In this document: in pieces, positions 2,097 to 11,217 of the stretch | Numbering within the stretch: position 1 is the stretch's first letter | Layout of the letters: the number at the start of each line of letters is the position of its first letter | NCBI GenBank assembly: GCA_026391235.1 | Contig: JAPLDV010000121.1 | Coordinates: 1-11,217 of the forward strand | Source: Bacteroidia bacterium | Lineage (GTDB): Bacteria; Bacteroidota; Bacteroidia; Bacteroidales; UBA12481 | DNA length: 11,217 nucleotides | Direction of reading: 5' to 3' | Program-made: the position numbers and the translations under genes | Notes under the pieces: generated by a model | What the model saw: only the letters and a program-made list of their open reading frames with translations | What the model was told of the DNA's origin: nothing | The model's database searches: none

Positions 2097-3014
2097 TCAA
2101 ACAAAATCAACATTGGCGAAGCTTCGTGCTATTCCCATCTTATATTTAACCGCCGGATAACCGATGATCAGAATCAGGCCTTCCCTGCTTTTATAACGGA
2201 TTCCGTGATCCTTCCTGAATTTTGCTGCTGCGCTTCCGCTCTGTATAAACGGATGAACACCTCCCAGCATGCAGGTGCCCAGTCCAAGTGATTCGGCAGC
2301 CAGCATGGCGTAGGTGGCAACAACGATGGGATCAGCAGGATCAGTATAGGGTGAACCGTAAAAATAGAATGCTGCCGGAGCATCATAGGTAACCAGGTTC
2401 TCACCTTTTTCCTTTGCACTGATGAAGGTATCGATCATCTGCTTTACGAAATTCCTGAACATCAGGTCATTCTCCTTTCCCCAGAAAGGCCGGGCCAATG
2501 TGAGGAACCATCCGGAAGTCATCCAACGGAGCCCTTTCAGGTAATCGCAAAAATCAAAACTAAATTTTCTGACTTTTTCCGGAGTGTCCATCACGAGCAC
2601 GTTAACGTCCGACGGAGGTAATCCCATCGGTGCCTGCGATGCCGCTTCAAGGATTTTATGAATCAGCTCCATCTCAACCGGCTTATCCTTAAACTCACGG
2701 ATACTTCTGCGCCGCTGCAGCAATTTCAGGTAAGGTCCGAAAGATGCGGCCTCTTCTTTTCGGGGTATAGGGAACAGATCAGCCCCGGAAGTAAACCTGC
2801 CTTCAATTTTAATTGCGCCATTCGGGCAAATGGCCATGCAGTGGCCGCAGCCAATGCATCCGAAGATGGCATTTTTCGATTTAGTGGCCTTTCCATCCAC
2901 TACTTCAAGACTGAAATCCTTGCAAACTGATACGCAAAGTCCGCAGCCCCGGCACAACTCAGTATTAAACAGGATTTGCGCTTCCTCAGTGGTACGGGTG
3001 GTTGGAATAGCCAT
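2097..3014 (-). CDS. Ferredoxin-nitroreductase fusion flavoprotein
   Basis: A 305-residue protein in two parts. The N-terminus has two 4Fe-4S ferredoxin motifs: Cys21, Cys24, Cys27, Cys31 (CRGCGLCVSVCK) and Cys53, Cys56, Cys59, Cys63 (CIGCGHCMAICPNGA). From about residue 97 it is a nitroreductase fold, opening with RRRSIREF at 101-108, the usual FMN phosphate-contacting segment of the family, and ending with the typical GYP and Arg-rich tail. Such fusions are common in anaerobes and are thought to pass electrons from reduced ferredoxin through FMN to an organic acceptor; the physiological substrate is unknown. The ATG at 3014 puts the first cluster near the N-terminus as expected. The gene lies 5 bases after the out-of-frame tail of the methyltransferase, so the two probably formed one operon. 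It looks intact. Confidence 0.92.
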   Translation of the reverse strand: MAIPTTRTTEEAQILFNTELCRGCGLCVSVCKDFSLEVVDGKATKSKNAIFGCIGCGHCMAICPNGAIKIEGRFTSGADLFPIPRKEEAASFGPYLKLLQRRRSIREFKDKPVEMELIHKILEAASQAPMGLPPSDVNVLVMDTPEKVRKFSFDFCDYLKGLRWMTSGWFLTLARPFWGKENDLMFRNFVKQMIDTFISAKEKGENLVTYDAPAAFYFYGSPYTDPADPIVVATYAMLAAESLGLGTCMLGGVHPFIQSGSAAAKFRKDHGIRYKSREGLILIIGYPAVKYKMGIARSFANVDFV

Positions 3015-3019
3015 AGATT

Positions 3020-3148
3020 CTATTTTTGTGCAATGATCAGCATTTCAAAGTCTTCGGTGGTGAGAACATCCTCTCGGCTGAATGCCCCGAGCCTGCAGCC
3101 GCAAATGGCAATCTCACGAAATCCTAGCGATTTAAGCAATAATCCCGG
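3020..3148 (-). pseudogene. Out-of-frame C-terminal tail of the methyltransferase
   Basis: Reading the minus strand in a different frame from the upstream methyltransferase, this stretch encodes 42 residues (it starts PGLLLKSLGFRE, then CRLGAFSRED, and ends DFEMLIIAQK) before TAG at 3020-3022. It looks like the normal C-terminal end of class I SAM methyltransferases of this type, with a late helix (LLKSLGF) and a final strand (FEMLIIA). No start codon of its own fits, and it overlaps the last codons of the upstream frame. I infer that it is the original end of that gene, separated by a frame-changing deletion or sequence error. Confidence 0.65.
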
Positions 3149-3687
3149 AACGTCATGACGTCGAAGGTATTGTCGCTTGTTACACATCCTGAAGTGCCGG
3201 CGTTGACAAAATCCTTCACCGAATGAAAAAGTGGGAACAGGCCATTAAGCGTGGTGAAAATCAATTTACCTCTGTCATTCAGGGAATTACAGGCATTCTG
3301 CAGGATGCGGTAATTCATTTCGTCGGTTTCCATCAGAGGAAATGCCCCTTCGCAGATCATGATGGCCAGATCAAACTCACCATAAAAGTCGAACTCCCGG
3401 GCATCAAGCCTGATAAAAGGGATATCCAGGTTCCTTGCAATTGCCACTTTTCTTGCTTTGGCCAGTTGAGCCTCCGAAAGGTCGATTCCGGTAACATAAT
3501 AACCTCTCGCAGCCAGTTCGATTGTGTGGCGGCCTGTTCCGCAGCCGATATCCAGGATCTTTAACGATTTATTGAATCCGGCTTCTTTCTCAATGAAATC
3601 GACTTCGCCGATCGTACCCCGGGTATATTCCTCGCGGTCATATCCGTCTGCGAAATCCTCGAATAATTCCTCGTACCATTGTTTCAT
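3124..3687 (-). CDS. Class I SAM-dependent methyltransferase, 3' end frame-disrupted
   Basis: The open frame is 187 residues. Motif I is ILDIGCGTGRHT at about 44-55, with Asp46 and the Gly48/Gly50/Gly52 loop that binds S-adenosylmethionine. Asp69 in GIDLS is the acidic residue at the end of strand 2, and Asp95 (RLDARE) fits the adenine-contact region. Related free-standing methyltransferases run to about 240-260 residues, and this frame stops after TFDVMTFRDYCLNR, short of the last helix and strand. A convincing C-terminal tail continues in another frame (3020-3148). Joining the two gives about 220 residues, so some 25-35 residues seem to be missing at the junction as well; that number comes from my knowledge of the family, not from an alignment. 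The methyl acceptor is unknown. The AlkD-like gene lies upstream across a REP-like element. Confidence 0.8.
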   Translation of the reverse strand: MKQWYEELFEDFADGYDREEYTRGTIGEVDFIEKEAGFNKSLKILDIGCGTGRHTIELAARGYYVTGIDLSEAQLAKARKVAIARNLDIPFIRLDAREFDFYGEFDLAIMICEGAFPLMETDEMNYRILQNACNSLNDRGKLIFTTLNGLFPLFHSVKDFVNAGTSGCVTSDNTFDVMTFRDYCLNR

Positions 3688-4615: not shown

Positions 4616-5401
4616 ATGAAATCACTTAGGATTATTCTTGTCTCATGCATGATTGCCTGCATTTTCGCGAGCTGCAAAAAAGAGAATGTTGCTCCGGCCC
4701 TTCCTCCGGAAGGATCCATGGTCATGAAATTCGACGGGTTTTGGAGTGGAACTCCCAAATCGGTCAGTGTTCCCAAAAGCAATTTCCTGTATGCCTCCCT
4801 TAATGTTTCCTGGTGGAACCTGGTGCTGACTGTTCAGCTGTCAATTCCTGTGGCAACATTTATCGAATCGTTTAATCACCAACCCGTCTGGGATGGGGGG
4901 TTGGATGTATGGATCTGGTCCTACCAGGTACCGGTCGGCAGCGATATATTTACGGCTGAATTGCATGGAAAAGACAACGGGGATGAAGTAAACTGGAATA
5001 TGTATATTTCCAAAACAGGCGGATTTACTGACTTTTTATGGTATTCCGGCGTCTCTCGGAAAGACAATACATCAGGGACATGGTATTTGAACAAAGCACC
5101 TGAAAATCCAACCGATTATTTGCAGATCGACTGGAATAACAACTCTGACGAGACTGCCGATATCCGTTATCAGAATGTCATTCCGGGTGCAAACGAGAAT
5201 GGCTCCTACATCAAGTACGGCATTGTGGGTGACCTGCCTCTCAATTCCTACTATGACATCTTCGGTCATACGGATAGCAGGCTGATCAACATCAAATGGA
5301 ATTCAACTTCTCATGCCGGCCGGGTGATGGACCAGAAGTATTTTACGGATTCAAATTGGCATTGCTGGGATGAATTGTTTATTAACACGAATTGCCAATA
5401 G
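4616..5401 (+). CDS. Putative secreted lipoprotein of unknown function
   Basis: A 261-residue protein. The N-terminus is a lipoprotein signal peptide: basic start, hydrophobic core (IILVSCMIACIFA) and lipobox FASC with Cys20 as the lipidated residue, followed by Lys-Lys-Glu-Asn. The mature part is rich in Trp, Tyr, Asn and Ser with alternating hydrophobic stretches, which suggests an all-beta domain, and two Cys near the end (about 250 and 260) could form a disulfide. I do not recognise the family. The start is the ATG directly before the signal peptide, with no Shine-Dalgarno sequence. It stands alone, divergent from the AlkD-like gene and convergent with the AbiEii-like gene, and the composite repeat begins about 20 bases after its stop. 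Confidence 0.8.
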   Translation: MKSLRIILVSCMIACIFASCKKENVAPALPPEGSMVMKFDGFWSGTPKSVSVPKSNFLYASLNVSWWNLVLTVQLSIPVATFIESFNHQPVWDGGLDVWIWSYQVPVGSDIFTAELHGKDNGDEVNWNMYISKTGGFTDFLWYSGVSRKDNTSGTWYLNKAPENPTDYLQIDWNNNSDETADIRYQNVIPGANENGSYIKYGIVGDLPLNSYYDIFGHTDSRLINIKWNSTSHAGRVMDQKYFTDSNWHCWDELFINTNCQ

Positions 5402-5520: not shown

Positions 5521-6147
5521 CTATTTGAGATAATCCCTCACCACTTGCTGAATTCCCTTTTTAACCCGGACCCAGGTCTGCTTTTTAAAACTCACCGGTT
5601 CCTCACTCTCATCTGCATCAACAAAATAGGTAATAGCATTGGGAATGCTGATTGCCAGCATCTGGGTGGGATATTTTTGCTTGTGCCAATCCATGATTTG
5701 TTGCAGGGAATAATGCTGCAGCAACTCAAACAGATCCCAGAAGTCCTTTTTCTTTCCCCTGCCCAGGATGGCTTGAATTTTCATGGCGCCAATATCAGGG
5801 CAGCTGTACATTCTGATGTTATCCTCAACTTCAATTGCAGCAATAGGTAAATGAGGAAAGTAAACGATATCCACCTTGACTTTTTGTATGTTACAGAAAA
5901 TCCCCAACTGCTTATGGCCGCCTTCATAAACAAAAGATCCTCCAAATGTCTCCACTAACTCGTTTTCGATCGGCACATGGTCGAATTTCTTATGAAAGAC
6001 CAAATCCAGATGGATGGAACTGCGGTGACCATATCGAAGAGACATGGCCGTTCCACCTACCAGAGAAAAAAATTCAAGCGATGGCATTGCCATCAGCTTT
6101 TTCAGTAAGGACAGAGTCCCGGGTTCAACTGTCTCAGTATGTAACAT
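5521..6147 (-). CDS. AbiEii/AbiGii-type nucleotidyltransferase toxin, first Asp replaced by His
   Basis: A 208-residue protein of the MNT-type nucleotidyltransferase superfamily, known for AbiEii (MenT) toxins of type IV toxin-antitoxin and abortive-infection systems, which modify RNA or other targets with nucleotides. Motif I is LVGGTAMSLRYGHRSS (Gly31, Gly32, Thr33, His41, Arg42). The metal-binding DxD that follows in the family reads HxD here: His46, Leu47, Asp48. A third acidic residue, Asp93 in KVDIVYF, and the late motif GRGKKKDFWDLFELL (about 129-143, Asp135) agree with the family. The start at 6147 overlaps the antitoxin gene by 46 bases, as is common in such pairs; MLHTETVEPGTL is a familiar type of N-terminus for the group. 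The His46 change could lower or abolish metal-dependent catalysis. The gene converges on the lipoprotein gene. Confidence 0.88.
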   Translation of the reverse strand: MLHTETVEPGTLSLLKKLMAMPSLEFFSLVGGTAMSLRYGHRSSIHLDLVFHKKFDHVPIENELVETFGGSFVYEGGHKQLGIFCNIQKVKVDIVYFPHLPIAAIEVEDNIRMYSCPDIGAMKIQAILGRGKKKDFWDLFELLQHYSLQQIMDWHKQKYPTQMLAISIPNAITYFVDADESEEPVSFKKQTWVRVKKGIQQVVRDYLK

Positions 6148-6422
6148 CTGAATTCCTTTAATGGTTTATTGATTACCGCGCTGGCTAGATGTATGCGGTG
6201 TTCCGGTAAAAACTTTGCATTCAATAATGCCTGTGTCACCTTTTCATCGCCGTAGTACCTGCGGCACTGGCGGATATCCTCCACATCACCGCGCTCAAAC
6301 ACCCGTTCAATTACGAAATTAGCCCTGAGATCATAGTCTAATTTCTCAAAATTGACATCCCAAAAGATGCGCTTGTCAAAAACCGGTTTCATTTTTTCAG
6401 ACATACCACGAAGATAAGCCAT
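6102..6422 (-). CDS. Small DUF6922-like protein, probable antitoxin partner of the AbiEii-like gene
   Basis: A 106-residue protein with the core FDKRIFWDVNFEKLDYD (about 15-31), then an Arg-rich helix around RQCRRYYGDEKVT and a C-terminal segment ending NKPLKEFRCY. It resembles, from memory, the DUF6922 proteins that lie just upstream of AbiEii-like genes in Bacteroidota. It comes first in the pair and overlaps the toxin start by 46 bases, the order and overlap expected for an antitoxin. ATG codons at 6422, 6404 and 6392 are all possible starts; conservation would be expected to begin near FDKR, so any of them keeps the core. A DNA-binding motif is not obvious, and the antitoxin role is inferred from position. 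Confidence 0.8.
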   Translation of the reverse strand: MAYLRGMSEKMKPVFDKRIFWDVNFEKLDYDLRANFVIERVFERGDVEDIRQCRRYYGDEKVTQALLNAKFLPEHRIHLASAVINKPLKEFRCYILRQLNPGLCPY

Positions 6423-6455: not shown

Positions 6456-6759
6456 ATGGGCTGTAAAAATCGGTCTAAAAAACGCGGCATGCACTTCGCT
6501 TTTACCAGTTACCTCACCTGAGCACATGTACCGTTCGGTAAAAGCATTCATAAAGGCCGGTTTTACCGATGTAGGCGGGTTGTCGGCTTTCGATAAGCCC
6601 ATAGAACCGGGAAAGGCCATGGATAAGGAAAACACGAAAGATATCCGGGTAAAAAGCCTGTCGTTGCGATATAATATCTGGAGTTATCTGCATTATGAGC
6701 TGATTGTGATAAGGGAATATTTCGCCGTAGCTTATTACAAGTTGAAAGGGTGGATCTGA
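6456..6759 (+). pseudogene. Broken small gene of unknown family
   Basis: From ATG 6456 a short frame reads 21 residues (MGCKNRSKKRGMHFAFTSYL and one more) to a stop at 6519-6521. Directly after it another frame opens, with ATG at 6526, and runs 77 residues to TGA at 6757-6759. The second part is rich in Lys, Tyr and Asp, uses codons like the neighbouring genes and ends in a hydrophobic helix-like stretch (YHELIV-type composition) with a final LKGWI. I do not recognise it. The promoter-like box before the first part and the coding look of the second suggest one gene of about 100 or more codons split by a frame change. Alternatively 6526-6759 is a small intact gene. Minus-strand frames here look like shadows. 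Confidence 0.4.
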
Positions 6760-8201: not shown

Positions 8202-8496
8202 CTAGCACACCGCTGTACCTGAATCAGAATAAGCCTTTCAGAAAGCTGTGCTGAATATTTCATCACCTGTTGAATTTATTTACATACACACTATTAACTT
8301 GATATCTTGAGCCTTAAGCCTTGTTTCTTTATTTTGTGTATATTATTTCAACACTTCGGGTGTGATCCTTTTCATCAATGGTTTTTCTATCTATTTGATA
8401 TTCTTCTATTTACATATTATTTTCTGCTTTGGCAGGGTAATTGAATACCAATATGGTGAATAGAAAACAGAAATTGTGAATTCAAATTTTAAGGCC
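8202..8496. other. AT-rich intergenic region, no gene seen
   Basis: This long space before the solute-binding fusion gene has stop codons in all frames and no RNA gene that I recognise. It is AT-rich, especially 8270-8420. A small hairpin (acac-ttcgg-gtgt) sits near 8350-8362. No full TAnnTTTG box was found. The upstream position suggests that it holds the promoter of the following gene, but the sequence does not show where. Confidence 0.5.
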
Positions 8497-9990
8497 ATGA
8501 AAAAAATATTGTTATTACTCATCGGTGCAGCACTGCTGCTTCAATGCCATGCCGGCATTATCCCTAAAATAGCCGGGGATTCCCAAAAAAACCCGCCCGG
8601 TACAGGCTCATTAACCATTACAAGCACCCCGGATCTGTATAATATGGTATCCAAATGGAGCAGCGAATACACCGCTATCAATCCGAAATTGAAGATCAAG
8701 GTTATAAACTTCGCGGATCTCAAGGCGGGCGCTTCATGGGATTCCGGTTCAGATCTGGCCTTTGGATCCAATGATTCCAATAATGCTTTCAGCGAAGGTT
8801 CACAGTGGAAAATGGTGATTGGCCGCGATGCCATCGTACCAATTATCAATTCCGGAAATCCTTTTCTGAATGAAATATTTCGCCAGGGAATCTCGGCAGA
8901 AGAGTTCAGAAGGCTTTTTGAGAATCCGGAAGCTCATACCTGGGCAACTTTGCTGGAAGGCGGACAAAATACCCCAGTCAATATCTATATGATTGATGAT
9001 GAACCCATCAAATCTTCTATCGCCAACTTTCTGAACCTCAAACCTGCTTCGATCAATGGAATTAAAGTAGCCGGCGGACCGGAAATGATCGCTGCTATTC
9101 AAAAGGATCCTAACGCAGTGGGTTTTTGCAAACTGGTTGATATTACCGATCCTTCAGGACAGATCCTGGTCAGTCAGATCAGCTTATTGCCAATCGACAA
9201 GAATTCAAACGGCAAAATGGACTATATTGAGAAAATATATGATAATGCAGCAGATTTATCGAGAGGAATCTGGATCGGAAAATATCCGAATGCCCTGTGC
9301 AGAAACTTTTATGCTTATGCCCCTGTTAAACCGGTCAATGATAATGAAATAACTTTTCTGAAATATGTCCTTACTGCCGGACAAGAATATCTCAGACTGG
9401 GTGGCTTTAATGGTCTCACGAATACCGAAAGGCTGTCTAAAATCGACCGGTTGCCATCTAATTTCCTCAAGGTTCAGGCAGGCACCGGAATAAATATCAC
9501 CCAGCTGATTATTACTCTTATTGCAGGAATCATCTTTATTCTTGCCATAGTATCCTTCTTAATCCGGAATAAGAAGTTATTTAGCCCGGTCGTGAAGGAA
9601 AGCGATCCCCGCTATTTGCAAGTAATTAACGAAAGTAATCTCATCGTACCAAAGGGTCTTTATTTCGACAAAACGCATACCTGGGCCTTTATGGAAAAAG
9701 ACGGTACGGTAAAAGTGGGTATCGATGATTTTCTCCAGCACGTAACAGGGGCGATAACCAGTATAAAAATGAAAAAACCTGGTGAAAAGATAAAAAAGGG
9801 TGAGCATATTCTCACAATTGTTCAAAATGGCAAACGCTTGAATATCTGCGCTCCGCTCTCAGGAATTATTCAAAAATTACCGACAGACCACTGGAGAGCT
9901 TTGGACCTGAGGTTTGGGAAGATTTTCAGACAAACTTTATCGATACTTCAAAATAACCAAAACAATAAATCATGGGACTTGATCGGATAA
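8497..9990 (+). CDS. PstS-like solute-binding / transmembrane / GcvH-like fusion protein, C-terminus suspect
   Basis: With ATG 8497 the protein has 497 residues; an in-frame GTG at 8476 only adds seven residues before the signal peptide MKKILLLLIGAALLLQCHA. Residues about 35-320 form a PstS-type periplasmic binding domain (LTITSTPDLYNMVSKW, IGRDAIVPIINSGNP, AVGFCKL, FLKYVLTAGQEYL). Inside it DKNSNGKMDYIE (234-245) has the spacing of an EF-hand calcium loop. One helix spans the membrane (about 334-356). From about 384 a GcvH-like domain follows (VPKGLYFDKTHTW, VKVGIDDFLQHVTG, PGEKIKKGE, CAPLSG). The lipoyl-lysine region reads IVQNGKR instead of ESVKA; Lys446 is the nearest candidate. After LSGII the frame turns unconvincing and another frame carries a better tail, so the last 35-40 residues are probably not native. 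The haem sensor kinase gene follows, suggesting joint signalling. Confidence 0.82.
   Translation: MKKILLLLIGAALLLQCHAGIIPKIAGDSQKNPPGTGSLTITSTPDLYNMVSKWSSEYTAINPKLKIKVINFADLKAGASWDSGSDLAFGSNDSNNAFSEGSQWKMVIGRDAIVPIINSGNPFLNEIFRQGISAEEFRRLFENPEAHTWATLLEGGQNTPVNIYMIDDEPIKSSIANFLNLKPASINGIKVAGGPEMIAAIQKDPNAVGFCKLVDITDPSGQILVSQISLLPIDKNSNGKMDYIEKIYDNAADLSRGIWIGKYPNALCRNFYAYAPVKPVNDNEITFLKYVLTAGQEYLRLGGFNGLTNTERLSKIDRLPSNFLKVQAGTGINITQLIITLIAGIIFILAIVSFLIRNKKLFSPVVKESDPRYLQVINESNLIVPKGLYFDKTHTWAFMEKDGTVKVGIDDFLQHVTGAITSIKMKKPGEKIKKGEHILTIVQNGKRLNICAPLSGIIQKLPTDHWRALDLRFGKIFRQTLSILQNNQNNKSWDLIG
9873..9956 (+). pseudogene. Out-of-frame C-terminal tail of the GcvH-like fusion
   Basis: In a frame different from the upstream gene this stretch encodes KITDRPLESFGPEVWEDF and then nine more residues before TAA at 9954-9956. 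The acidic, codon-typical sequence with GPEVWEDFQ looks like a real protein end, and it agrees with what I recall of related GcvH-domain fusions, while the in-frame version reads as Arg-, Gln- and Asn-rich nonsense. If so, the second half of the GcvH domain and a stretch after it are missing at a junction around 9861-9885, together with a frame change. This is inference. Confidence 0.45.
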
Positions 9991-10067
9991 CACTTTCCGA
10001 CTGGAAGATAGACAAGGCACAGACTGATATATTGAAAAATTCAACACTTGTGATCATTAATCCTTAA
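9972..10067 (+). CDS. Possible 31-residue small ORF
   Basis: ATG at 9972 opens a 31-codon frame (MGLDRITLSDWKIDKAQTDI...VIINP) ending TAA at 10065-10067, between the fusion gene and the kinase. The composition is plausible, but there is no Shine-Dalgarno sequence and no recognisable family. It overlaps the last codons of the suspect upstream frame and lies 15 bases beyond the alternative tail's stop. It may be a truncated gene start or chance. Confidence 0.2.
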   Translation: MGLDRITLSDWKIDKAQTDILKNSTLVIINP

Positions 10068-10091
10068 ATTTACCAGCGCAGCCCTGAATAA

Positions 10092-10095
10092 AGGA
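10092..10095 (+). promoter_or_regulatory. Shine-Dalgarno sequence of the sensor kinase
   Basis: AGGA (within aaagga) lies 6 bases before the ATG at 10102. It is a clear ribosome binding site in a window where most genes have none, and it supports this start over later ATG codons. Confidence 0.6.
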
Positions 10096-10101
10096 ACAGA
10101 C

Positions 10102-11217
10102 ATGTTCAATAAAGTCAAATCAGATAGCATAATCGGAAGTCCGTCGCTCAGAAAGAGATACATTCAGTTCCGATCATCTATTTACAGTCGCGTTGTCCTT
10201 ATAATCGGTATATTGTCAATCTTTCTTCTGGTATCTAACAATCTTATTTTCAGATCGGTCAATGACGGTTACATCAATACCGTCATCCATCAGAATGGCA
10301 GCAATATCGGGTCGATCGTTGAAGGTGCCCTCTACCATTCCATGCTTGAAAATAACCGGAGTGCTCTTCAGAATACGCTCGATGTGATCAATACCATGCC
10401 GGGAATTGACGATGTGAACATGTATGATAATCAGGACAACCTCGCCTATTCATCCTTTTCGGAGAATAAAGTAGGCCATATCGATCCTAATTGTAAAGGT
10501 TGCCATACTGATATACGTACCATGTTTCCACAAAAGGAAAAGTCGTACCGGATAATCGACAGTCATAGCGAGTGCCTCATGAGTCAGACTGATAAAAGCT
10601 CACGTCACCTGCTGATACGCTCGCCGATCCTGAATGAGCCCTCATGCTTCAATACCACTGCCTGTCACGCCCACAATGCCACCGAGGAGGTTCTGGGCTC
10701 CCTGTTCATTAAAATGCCGCTGACGGATGTGGATGCAGCAGTACAACGCTCATCGAGGGAGTTTTTCATACTGGAAGCACTGATCACCCTGTTCCTGGCC
10801 TCATTCCTGCTGTTTTTTACCCGGAAAAAAATTAAAAATCCTCTAAACGCCATCATTAAAGCCAGCGAAGCTGTTGCCACAGGCGATCATACCGCGCGGC
10901 TGGAGGTCAGTCCGAACCAGTTGGATGATATCCGTATGCTCTCCTTTGCATTCAACCACATGCTGGATAATTTGCAGAAGGCCACTACCGAACTGCAGAA
11001 CTGGTCGAAACAGCTGGAATACAAGGTCCAGAAAAAATCGGAAGAATTGGGAGAAGTACAGAACGAACTTATTAATATTGAGCGCATTGCTTCCCTGGGG
11101 AAATTGTCTTCCTCTGTAGCCCATGAAATCAATAATCCCCTGTCCGGCATCCTGATTTACACCAAACTGGTTCACAAGAAATTAATTAACGAAAATATCG
11201 ATCCCGCGAAAAAGGAC
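10102..11217 (+). CDS. Periplasmic c-type-haem sensor histidine kinase (5' part; runs off the window)
   Basis: The first 372 codons of an open frame that continues past the window edge. Transmembrane helix 1 is about residues 31-50 and helix 2 about 221-239; the periplasmic sensor between them holds CKGCH (Cys131, Cys134, His135), the standard covalent haem c motif, and a second motif CFNTTACH (Cys182, Cys188, His189) with five residues between the cysteines. A further Cys lies near 153 (HSECLMSQ). After helix 2 come a HAMP domain (about 240-292), a coiled coil (about 293-330) and the HisKA domain with the phospho-acceptor His341 in SVAHEINNP. The ATPase domain must lie beyond the window. It probably senses redox state or a ligand through haem and phosphorylates a response regulator not seen here. 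The PstS-GcvH fusion gene upstream is its likely functional partner. Confidence 0.92.
   Translation, partial: MFNKVKSDSIIGSPSLRKRYIQFRSSIYSRVVLIIGILSIFLLVSNNLIFRSVNDGYINTVIHQNGSNIGSIVEGALYHSMLENNRSALQNTLDVINTMPGIDDVNMYDNQDNLAYSSFSENKVGHIDPNCKGCHTDIRTMFPQKEKSYRIIDSHSECLMSQTDKSSRHLLIRSPILNEPSCFNTTACHAHNATEEVLGSLFIKMPLTDVDAAVQRSSREFFILEALITLFLASFLLFFTRKKIKNPLNAIIKASEAVATGDHTARLEVSPNQLDDIRMLSFAFNHMLDNLQKATTELQNWSKQLEYKVQKKSEELGEVQNELINIERIASLGKLSSSVAHEINNPLSGILIYTKLVHKKLINENIDPAKKD

Follow-up and report, generated by a model that had tools for sequence, protein, structure and literature searches.

Organization of a conserved Bacteroidota operon with GcvH-like membrane proteins and a predicted haem c sensor kinase, and a damaged copy of it in a Bacteroidia contig

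Introduction

Several described systems resemble parts of the locus presented here, which lies on a contig of a Bacteroidia bacterium (JAPLDV010000121.1, assembly GCA_026391235.1; all 11,217 nucleotides are called the window below). Its central gene, F, fuses a PstS-like periplasmic binding protein (PBP) domain, a membrane helix and a GcvH-like domain and is followed in the window by a sensor histidine kinase gene, K; three further genes (A, B and S) stand between F and K in relatives, and two more (R and M) follow K. Two-part modules of an Fe-S protein and an NrfD-type subunit, like A and B, are known as SirCD in Shewanella and CbcTU in Geobacter, and SirCD is reported to be able to replace CymA as quinol dehydrogenase (PMC11434368). 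Compared with these, the operon adds two GcvH-like membrane proteins, a predicted haem c kinase, a sigma-54 regulator and an archaemetzincin, while no catalytic subunit for the quinol dehydrogenase-like module is shown in it. A Tat-type Fe-S protein and an NrfD-family subunit are likewise combined in HybA-HybB of Escherichia coli hydrogenase 2, HybA with 4x[4Fe-4S] and HybB being NrfD-like (PMC8076601). The operon, in contrast, has no hydrogenase genes, and the HybA-likeness of A comes from layout and Pfam Fe-S matches, with no HybA-specific model.

On the signalling side, the E. coli QseG-QseE-QseF system comprises an accessory periplasmic protein, a sensor kinase and a sigma-54 regulator that binds upstream sites (PMC6075780). 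The likeness is one of layout and not of homology: F, unlike QseG, spans the membrane and carries PstS-like and GcvH-like domains, and K has haem motifs. GcvH and LbpA are lipoate carriers with the same fold as the GcvH-like domain, as judged from sequence and model; LbpA keeps a strictly conserved lysine (PMC6067878), whereas the GcvH-like domains of the operon have Gly in that column. The phosphate receptor PstS shares with the PBP domain of F its fold, overall alignment and an EF-hand-like loop, while F lacks the anion loops, is fused to a helix and a GcvH-like domain and has no pstCAB adjoining it. Among the best-ranked matches in the open-licence full-text literature we found no description of the operon; the matches otherwise gave general background.

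Organization of the operon in relatives

We best explain the window as carrying the 5' end of a conserved operon, found in mostly uncultured Bacteroidota, together with the beginning of its kinase gene. A search for F homologues gave 1931 proteins at E ≤ 0.001 among 7999 scored candidates. F relatives are encoded on 103 stretches, of which 80 loci were kept for counts; these come from Bacteroidota or from taxa that we take to belong to Bacteroidota. Calling of open reading frames (ORFs) and clustering of neighbours showed F-A-B-S-K-R-M as the common order. In the relative L002, Pfam assigns A to the 4Fe-4S proteins (with a weak TAT signal match below the cut-off), B to NrfD, S to GCV_H, K to HAMP/HisKA/HATPase, R to receiver, sigma-54 AAA and Fis domains, and M to peptidase family M54 (archaemetzincin). 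S consists of a membrane helix and a GcvH-like domain. The A proteins harbor RRxF within their first 45 residues in 59 of 61 cases and have 16–18 cysteines each. The full operon contains a module of the SirCD/NrfCD type (a Tat-type multi-[4Fe-4S] protein with an NrfD-family protein), for which quinol oxidation is predicted.

K lies downstream of F on the same strand in 66 of the 80 loci. All of A, B and S are called between the two in 51, B and S in five, A and B in one and none in nine; in several loci where two were called, the third gene is hidden by an antisense ORF. After K come R in 64 and M in 56 of these 66 loci. Most of the 14 remaining loci (11) have less than 8 kb of downstream sequence, the exceptions being L042 (K upstream), L029 (a kinase on the other strand) and L070 (none). 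The same 14 split into six with A-B-S, four that end inside A or B and four without these genes on the F strand. L042 is rearranged, with K-R-M ahead of F-A-B-S.

These counts bear on the original prediction, which was made from the window alone and took the binding and carrier domains to be probably used for signalling or redox relay rather than for transport or glycine breakdown. Signalling is supported by the haem-type kinase that comes after F, on its strand, in 66 of 80 loci; the direct adjacency in the window is secondary and the fusion there is broken, as described below. The response regulator, NrfD-like and Fe-S proteins that had been named as possible neighbours all exist in relatives. 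Fusions stand near such kinases, and no ordinary pst operon lies downstream: as had been stated, no pst permease (pstCAB) and no gcvPT gene is found among the 10 window ORFs scanned, and the genes that recur beside F in relatives are A, B, S, K, R and M. Overall the earlier observation was partly confirmed and its interpretation partly supported. The operon is widespread and seems to link membrane electron transfer to gene control.

Promoter and palindromes

In 57 of 74 loci F is preceded by a sigma-54 element that agrees with the consensus at 10 or more of 12 positions, where shuffles would give 0.7. Such an element is infrequent before A (1/61), B (2/65), S (0/62), K (5/72) and M (2/57), and a score of 11 is reached before F only (10/74). 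Counting dyads upstream led to a palindrome with the consensus AGTGTTGAATNATTCAACACT, which was derived without the window and scored with a cut-off of 14/20. At least one copy is present in 65 of 67 promoters and at least two in 59, compared with 2/67 when shuffled; the 67 derive from the 80 loci, minus weak promoter calls or those with fewer than 200 bases upstream. Copies are found at fixed spacing, mostly near -95 and between -160 and -190, and the window has its two copies, 88 bases apart, where they would be expected. At this cut-off, none was found before A, R or M, and few before B (2/65), S (3/62) and K (10/72). Concerning held-out promoters, 30 of 34 have the palindrome and 23 have at least two copies (shuffled 0/34), six duplicates and L100, which has no promoter call, having been dropped. 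Paired palindromes and a sigma-54 promoter, together with the kinase and a REC-AAA-Fis (REC, receiver domain) regulator, correspond to an NtrC-type architecture, as predicted from sequence. The R gene of the window copy would be past the window end.

A wider regulon of R was also sought. A loose palindrome pattern matched too often to be used, and a stricter one gave no second shared target: palindrome plus sigma-54 element matched 25 times in 22 of 49 genomes, 18 of the matches standing before this operon by position. This pattern misses many true sites (27 of the 49 genomes have no match), so it shows only that no second shared target stands out. The palindrome-like site before K (Table 1) resembles the activating sites, and some lineages may have a second control point there.

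The GcvH-like and PstS-like domains

The single polypeptide of PstS-type domain, one membrane helix and GcvH-like domain that had been proposed for the window is borne out by Pfam and by an AlphaFold model of the intact homologue P0001. The fusion ORF spans 8476-9990, with a conventional start at 8497 that fits the sequence, and it contains both PBP_like_2 (PF12849, E = 7e-7, above the cut-off) and GCV_H (PF01597, E = 1.8e-10). The helix between the two parts lies at about 9502-9567 and corresponds to residues 331-358 in the P0001 model.

The GcvH fold is present: P0001 matches PF01597 with an E-value of 3.2e-22 and the E. coli H-protein (3a8i_E) with a root-mean-square deviation of 1.1 Å and a template-modelling (TM) score by target of 0.94. 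The TIGR00527 GcvH equivalog cut-off of 115.85 is missed at 28.2 bits, in a scan of the truncated window copy only. In an alignment of 79 F and 62 S domains with two true GcvH fragments, Gly occupies the lipoyl-lysine column in 78 F and 55 S, and the column after it holds Lys in 77 F and 52 S and Arg in one F and five S. In the P0001 model (mean predicted local distance difference test score 85.7), the hairpin strands are residues 434-440 and 443-448 with the tip at 441-442, and Lys443 starts the next strand, off the tip. In seven longer proteins of distant relatives that join REC and GcvH-like domains, the residues in the lipoyl column, read by eye, are K, N, T, Q, R, K and N, and the next column is K or R. 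Judging from alignment and model, the GcvH-like domain is not a normal lipoate carrier. Glycine cleavage and a lipoate relay were both rejected on the position of the lysine; the redox relay through a lipoyl carrier that the original prediction had allowed for is unlikely because the lysine that would be modified is not at the right position.

A version of the relay could be saved if the domains were lipoylated at the neighbouring lysine and acted in thiol/disulfide or acyl transfer. The true GcvH fold and the high frequency of Lys one residue past the canonical site would agree with this. The canonical column is nevertheless Gly almost throughout, the model removes Lys443 from the hairpin tip, and the shifted residue is Arg, which cannot carry lipoate, not only in the six F and S proteins mentioned but also in the REC-GcvH proteins of L093 and L098. 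In lipoyl domains, moving the lysine by one residue abolishes lipoylation. We regard lipoylation at the shifted site as very improbable.

Concerning the PBP domain, Foldseek matches it to phosphate-binding proteins with TM scores by target of 0.51-0.74 among the first 12 rows. Three loops were read from an alignment that combined seven PstS relatives and 11 F sequences, that of the window and those of 10 among the 80 loci. SGAFALYP, SR and R[SA]DA[SAC]GAA, which we take to be the anion-binding loops, are kept in 7/7 PstS relatives and in 0, 1 and 0 of the 11 F sequences, respectively. An EF-hand-like loop inside the domain (Table 1) is common to the fusion family and to the Bacteroidota PstS relatives and is therefore probably inherited from PstS. 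The sequence indicates that the PstS-like part of F is no longer a normal phosphate receptor, and phosphate uptake was rejected, the anion loops being lost and pstCAB missing. F could alternatively be a co-receptor that senses a ligand, its PstS-like domain having kept the ability to bind phosphate or another anion and signalling this to K. The fold is well predicted and close to phosphate-binding proteins, and the nearest relatives of the domain look like pstS genes; against this stands the near-complete absence of the three loops from F, which leaves the co-receptor a poor candidate.

The sensor kinase

The original prediction also described the adjoining kinase as having a haem-binding type of periplasmic sensor, and the HAMP/HisKA regions and a CKGCH motif are indeed found. 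Read from the sequence, the window K has CX2CH (CKGCH) at 10492-10506 and CX5CH at 10645-10668. It reaches 372 amino acids up to the window end, against a median of 557 in relatives and 574 in L002. In the K cluster, 68 of 76 members have the haem motifs CX2CH and CX4CH. With these motifs, K is a putative haem c sensor kinase, covalent haem being predicted only.

Distribution in the order and in the phylum

Sampling of 295 genomes from the order of G013 gave 37 matches at E ≤ 1e-70, namely 29 fusions (28 full-length, that of G531 matching from position 79) and eight first genes without the PBP domain. A chance read-through of two adjoining genes is ruled out as the origin of the fusion, because it occurs in 29 of the 295 genomes and is full-length in 28. 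Loci were fetched for the eight and for 26 of the 29 fusions, the remaining three genomes (G013, G002 and G011) being already in the set; six of the 26 duplicate earlier F loci. The eight PBP-less loci comprise six of the order S1-A-B-S-K-R-M and two of S1-K-R-M, where S1 is the PBP-less first gene. Among the 26 fusion loci, L128 and L130 are F-K-R-M, L115 ends before K and L136 looks rearranged, while another 21 carry B and K, with some A or S hidden by an antisense ORF. In L126 a 7-haem cytochrome with a C-terminal helix (2412-3458) replaces A-B between F and S. The constant part across the order is thus a membrane GcvH-like protein with K, R and M. Six of the eight PBP-less proteins form one supported group nested among the fusions in the tree described below, which suggests secondary loss of the PBP domain, the tree being too weak to settle it. 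In L136, a single 381-amino-acid ORF (2404-3549) has matches to the HybA-like protein as well as to the kinase, which would fit a deletion or misassembly of the B and S genes in between.

Across the phylum, 40 of 395 genomes have a match at E ≤ 1e-30, at most a few candidates having been scored per genome, and the whole fusion is matched in the centre genome only. The PBP half alone gave 11 matches in 10 genomes, from which seven proteins at six loci were fetched. In L082, which was scanned with Pfam, the PBP protein is followed by two permeases and an ABC ATPase, and the other loci have neighbours of similar sizes. Given these pstS-like neighbourhoods, the PBP half of the fusion most likely derives from PstS. 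Matches to the GcvH-like half alone revealed S-A-B-S'-K-R-M in L085, L086, L090 and L100, and the same type with an extra GcvH gene and a 4-haem cytochrome in L081. Seven other loci (L088 and L093-L098) are arranged as A-B-13-haem cytochrome-K-REC-GcvH-REC-GcvH, followed in four of them by 19- and 16-haem proteins, an arrangement that suggests an extracellular electron-transfer cluster. Pfam found REC and GCV_H in all 10 proteins scanned, of 14 such genes. Since a GcvH-like protein and a kinase with CX2CH and CX4CH are kept across such distant loci, the two stay together though much else changes. It is conceivable, and put forward here tentatively, that lipoate-free GcvH-like barrels are a general adaptor or output module for Bacteroidota haem c sensor kinases, with one branch borne on a helix and joined to a decommissioned PstS and another fused to REC beside multihaem cytochrome clusters. 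Redox sensing would on this view be tied, by way of a metabolic carrier fold put to new use, to electron transfer that is driven by quinol and possibly extracellular.

The damaged copy in the window

The window and L002 represent the same locus, as eight of the nine window genes from 2097 on have an L002 counterpart. Identities are 84% for the nitroreductase, 78% for the methyltransferase, 78% for the DNA-alkylation protein, 69% for the esterase, 81% for the AbiEii-like protein, 91% for its 106-amino-acid partner, 60% for F and 88% for K. The 261-amino-acid ORF at 4616 has no match in L002. L002 carries A, B and S between F and K; all three are absent from the window, so F-K adjacency as the ancestral state was rejected. 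The adjacency seen in the window is secondary and comes from the loss of three genes. The start of A survives as ATGGGACTTGATCGG (MGLDR in L001 and L002), 15 bases past the old F stop, and shortly after it begins sequence that matches a stretch just upstream of K in L002.

The F copy itself is a broken gene with a frameshift. It has 504 amino acids, compared with mostly 550-577 in the listed intact homologues, and the best homologues among the database matches are 62-71% identical to it and longer. It tracks them to about residue 465 (near 9870) and then diverges, the sequence from 9870 up to the stop at 9990 being out of frame. Its GCV_H match covers profile positions 1-72 of 122. About 240 bases, as counted from alignments, are absent relative to L002; they encode the second half of the GcvH-like barrel and most of the conserved helical tail. 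Elsewhere in the window, only an 87-amino-acid piece (6496-6756, 83% identical) remains of a 270-amino-acid L002 gene, and a 257-amino-acid gene carried before the fusion in L001-L003 was not found in the window; the stretch has therefore lost more than operon genes.

Such losses would also be seen if the assembly or consensus were in error and the organism had the full operon. The surviving C-terminal residues of F and the five codons of A show no sign of decay, which would fit either an artefact or an event of very recent date. The other reduced parts of the window, and best F homologues that are longer at 62-71% identity, would fit an error as well. In the opposite direction, no damage is seen in the readable part of K and of the promoter region, and stepwise loss of the same genes is documented between two loci with closely similar flanks (L067 and L068), while G009 has pieces matching S with stops (both below). 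An artefact is in our judgement unlikely, although a serious contender.

Repeated loss of A, B and S

Loss of A-B-S has happened repeatedly among the relatives, and the loss in the window thereby has natural parallels. An intact F stands beside K without A-B-S in nine of the 80 loci. L067 and L068 have both flanks in common at 85-91% nucleotide identity; A-B-S is present in L068; all that L067 retains of it is one piece, running from the end of A into the start of B. Directly after F in G009 (the L080 genome) lie S-matching pieces with stops. We searched 15 whole genomes with S and B models and found B in five, the comparison genomes that carry A-B-S. The nine genomes with the short form (F beside K) and that of L029 showed neither B nor a complete S in this whole-genome model search, genome completeness not being stated.

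A tree of 123 GcvH-like domains requires, in the form drawn, a minimum of 11 changes between the short and the long form. Because 55 of its 120 branches are weak, the number of losses is only bounded; the well-supported branches alone force three changes for the short-form fusion group. The tree leaves out the fusions of L003 and L046 and one outgroup row, which have no anchor, and also six duplicates. All fusions other than those scored short received the label long, even where the downstream genes are unseen; the count is 11 without the ten rows of that kind and 12 if L029 is taken as short.

Selection on F was compared through the ratio of nonsynonymous to synonymous rates (dN/dS). Between L067 and L068 the ratio is 0.35 for F, 0.08 for K, 0.05 for R and 0.12 for M, and in seven other pairs it is 0.08-0.18 for F, several dS values being saturated. 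This suggests, without proving it, that F loosens after loss of A-B-S; in the window F broke outright. In an alternative reading, F and S are electron-transfer subunits whose GcvH-like domains belong, on the cytoplasmic side, to the A-B complex, and the kinase does no more than monitor that complex. The joint absence of B and S from all ten tested genomes whose locus lacks A-B-S, the higher F ratio where A-B-S was lost, the damage to both A-B-S and F in the window and the cytochrome that takes the place of A-B in L126 are all in favor of such subunits. The nine loci with F intact ahead of K speak against them, and in the short-form group of L076, L078 and L080 the F ratio stays at 0.14-0.18, though dS is saturated. 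Moreover, the low dS of F between L067 and L068 (0.15, against 0.21-0.38 for K, R and M) inflates its ratio. We hold the role of F and S as electron-transfer subunits to be a minority possibility.

Proposed mechanism

The computations show the order of the genes, their domains, the promoter architecture, the truncated F and missing A-B-S of the window and the repeated loss of A-B-S elsewhere; from these we infer a mechanism that we consider probable as a whole, namely a redox-sensing two-component system that controls its own operon and has lipoate-free GcvH-like membrane adaptors. K would read the redox state of the periplasm or of the quinol pool via covalent haem and phosphorylate R, which would bind the paired palindromes and drive sigma-54 transcription of its own operon. 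A and B would form, by analogy, a quinol dehydrogenase like SirCD, one that lacks a catalytic subunit and hands electrons on to partners in the periplasm. The GcvH-like barrels of F and S at the cytoplasmic face would be protein-protein adaptors and not lipoate carriers, and the PstS-like part of F may be a periplasmic accessory partner of K and/or A-B, as QseG is to QseE. With the electron-transfer module deleted and F broken, at most the kinase circuit would remain in the window.

Several points weigh against this mechanism. The second motif of the window K, CX5CH, is not a usual haem c site, and the Foldseek rows shown for the K model are the kinase core or chimeras, in which the fold of the sensor domain was not identified. 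R would be the palindrome binder by virtue of gene order. Sigma-54 elements of at least 10/12 also occur before R in 16 of 66 loci, where the searched stretch lies in the K coding sequence. Six matches of the strict pattern fall elsewhere and one (G004) at a contig end, the backward control giving one. Of the distant relatives, L090 showed no palindrome upstream of its operon and L100 no promoter. As F is intact without A-B-S in nine loci, it need not belong to an A-B complex, and the losses in the window could be assembly error.

As a general system the operon varies known kinds, and the window copy is a damaged one. The findings point to an operon, conserved in mostly uncultured Bacteroidota and with a promoter code of its own, that joins a two-component sensor of the haem type to a module resembling quinol dehydrogenases. 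They also give a clear example of the lipoate-carrier fold apparently used without lipoate next to signalling proteins. Regulation can be tested directly through the promoter code, and natural losses such as L067 versus L068 are ready-made comparisons.

Features of the window

The features of the operon copy are listed in Table 1.

Table 1. Positions of the operon features in the window.
Feature	Position	Strand	Basis
Distal palindrome, 15/20 consensus positions, centre about 185 bases before the -12 element	8247..8267	+	
Proximal palindrome, 15/20, centre about 97 bases before the -12 element and 88 bases after the distal one	8335..8355	+	
Sigma-54-type promoter TGGCAGGGTAATTGAA, 10/12 consensus positions	8430..8445	+	
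Intact part of F (signal sequence, PstS-like periplasmic domain, membrane helix, first GcvH-like part)	8497..9873	+	
EF-hand-like loop DKNSNGKMDYIE in the PstS-like domain, putative calcium binding	9196..9231	+	predicted from sequence
Hairpin motif IVQNGKRLNI at the lipoyl-lysine site of GcvH; Gly aligns with that lysine, Lys one residue later	9817..9846	+	
Deletion junction and out-of-frame remnant of the true F C-terminus (GPEVWEDFQTNFIDTSK, stop 9954-9956)	9874..9956	+	tblastn with L002, three-frame translation
First five codons (MGLDR) of the deleted HybA-like gene A	9972..9986	+	comparison with L001 and L002
Extra palindrome-like site before K, 16/20; same-score site before K in L002	10028..10048	+	
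Sensor histidine kinase K, cut by the window end (periplasmic part, HAMP, start of HisKA)	10102..11217	+	

Two further parts of the window lie on the minus strand. The gene at 2097-3014, the nitroreductase compared above, encodes a ferredoxin-nitroreductase fusion. At 5521-6422, the AbiEii-like nucleotidyltransferase and the overlapping 106-amino-acid gene look like a toxin-antitoxin-type pair kept at the locus.

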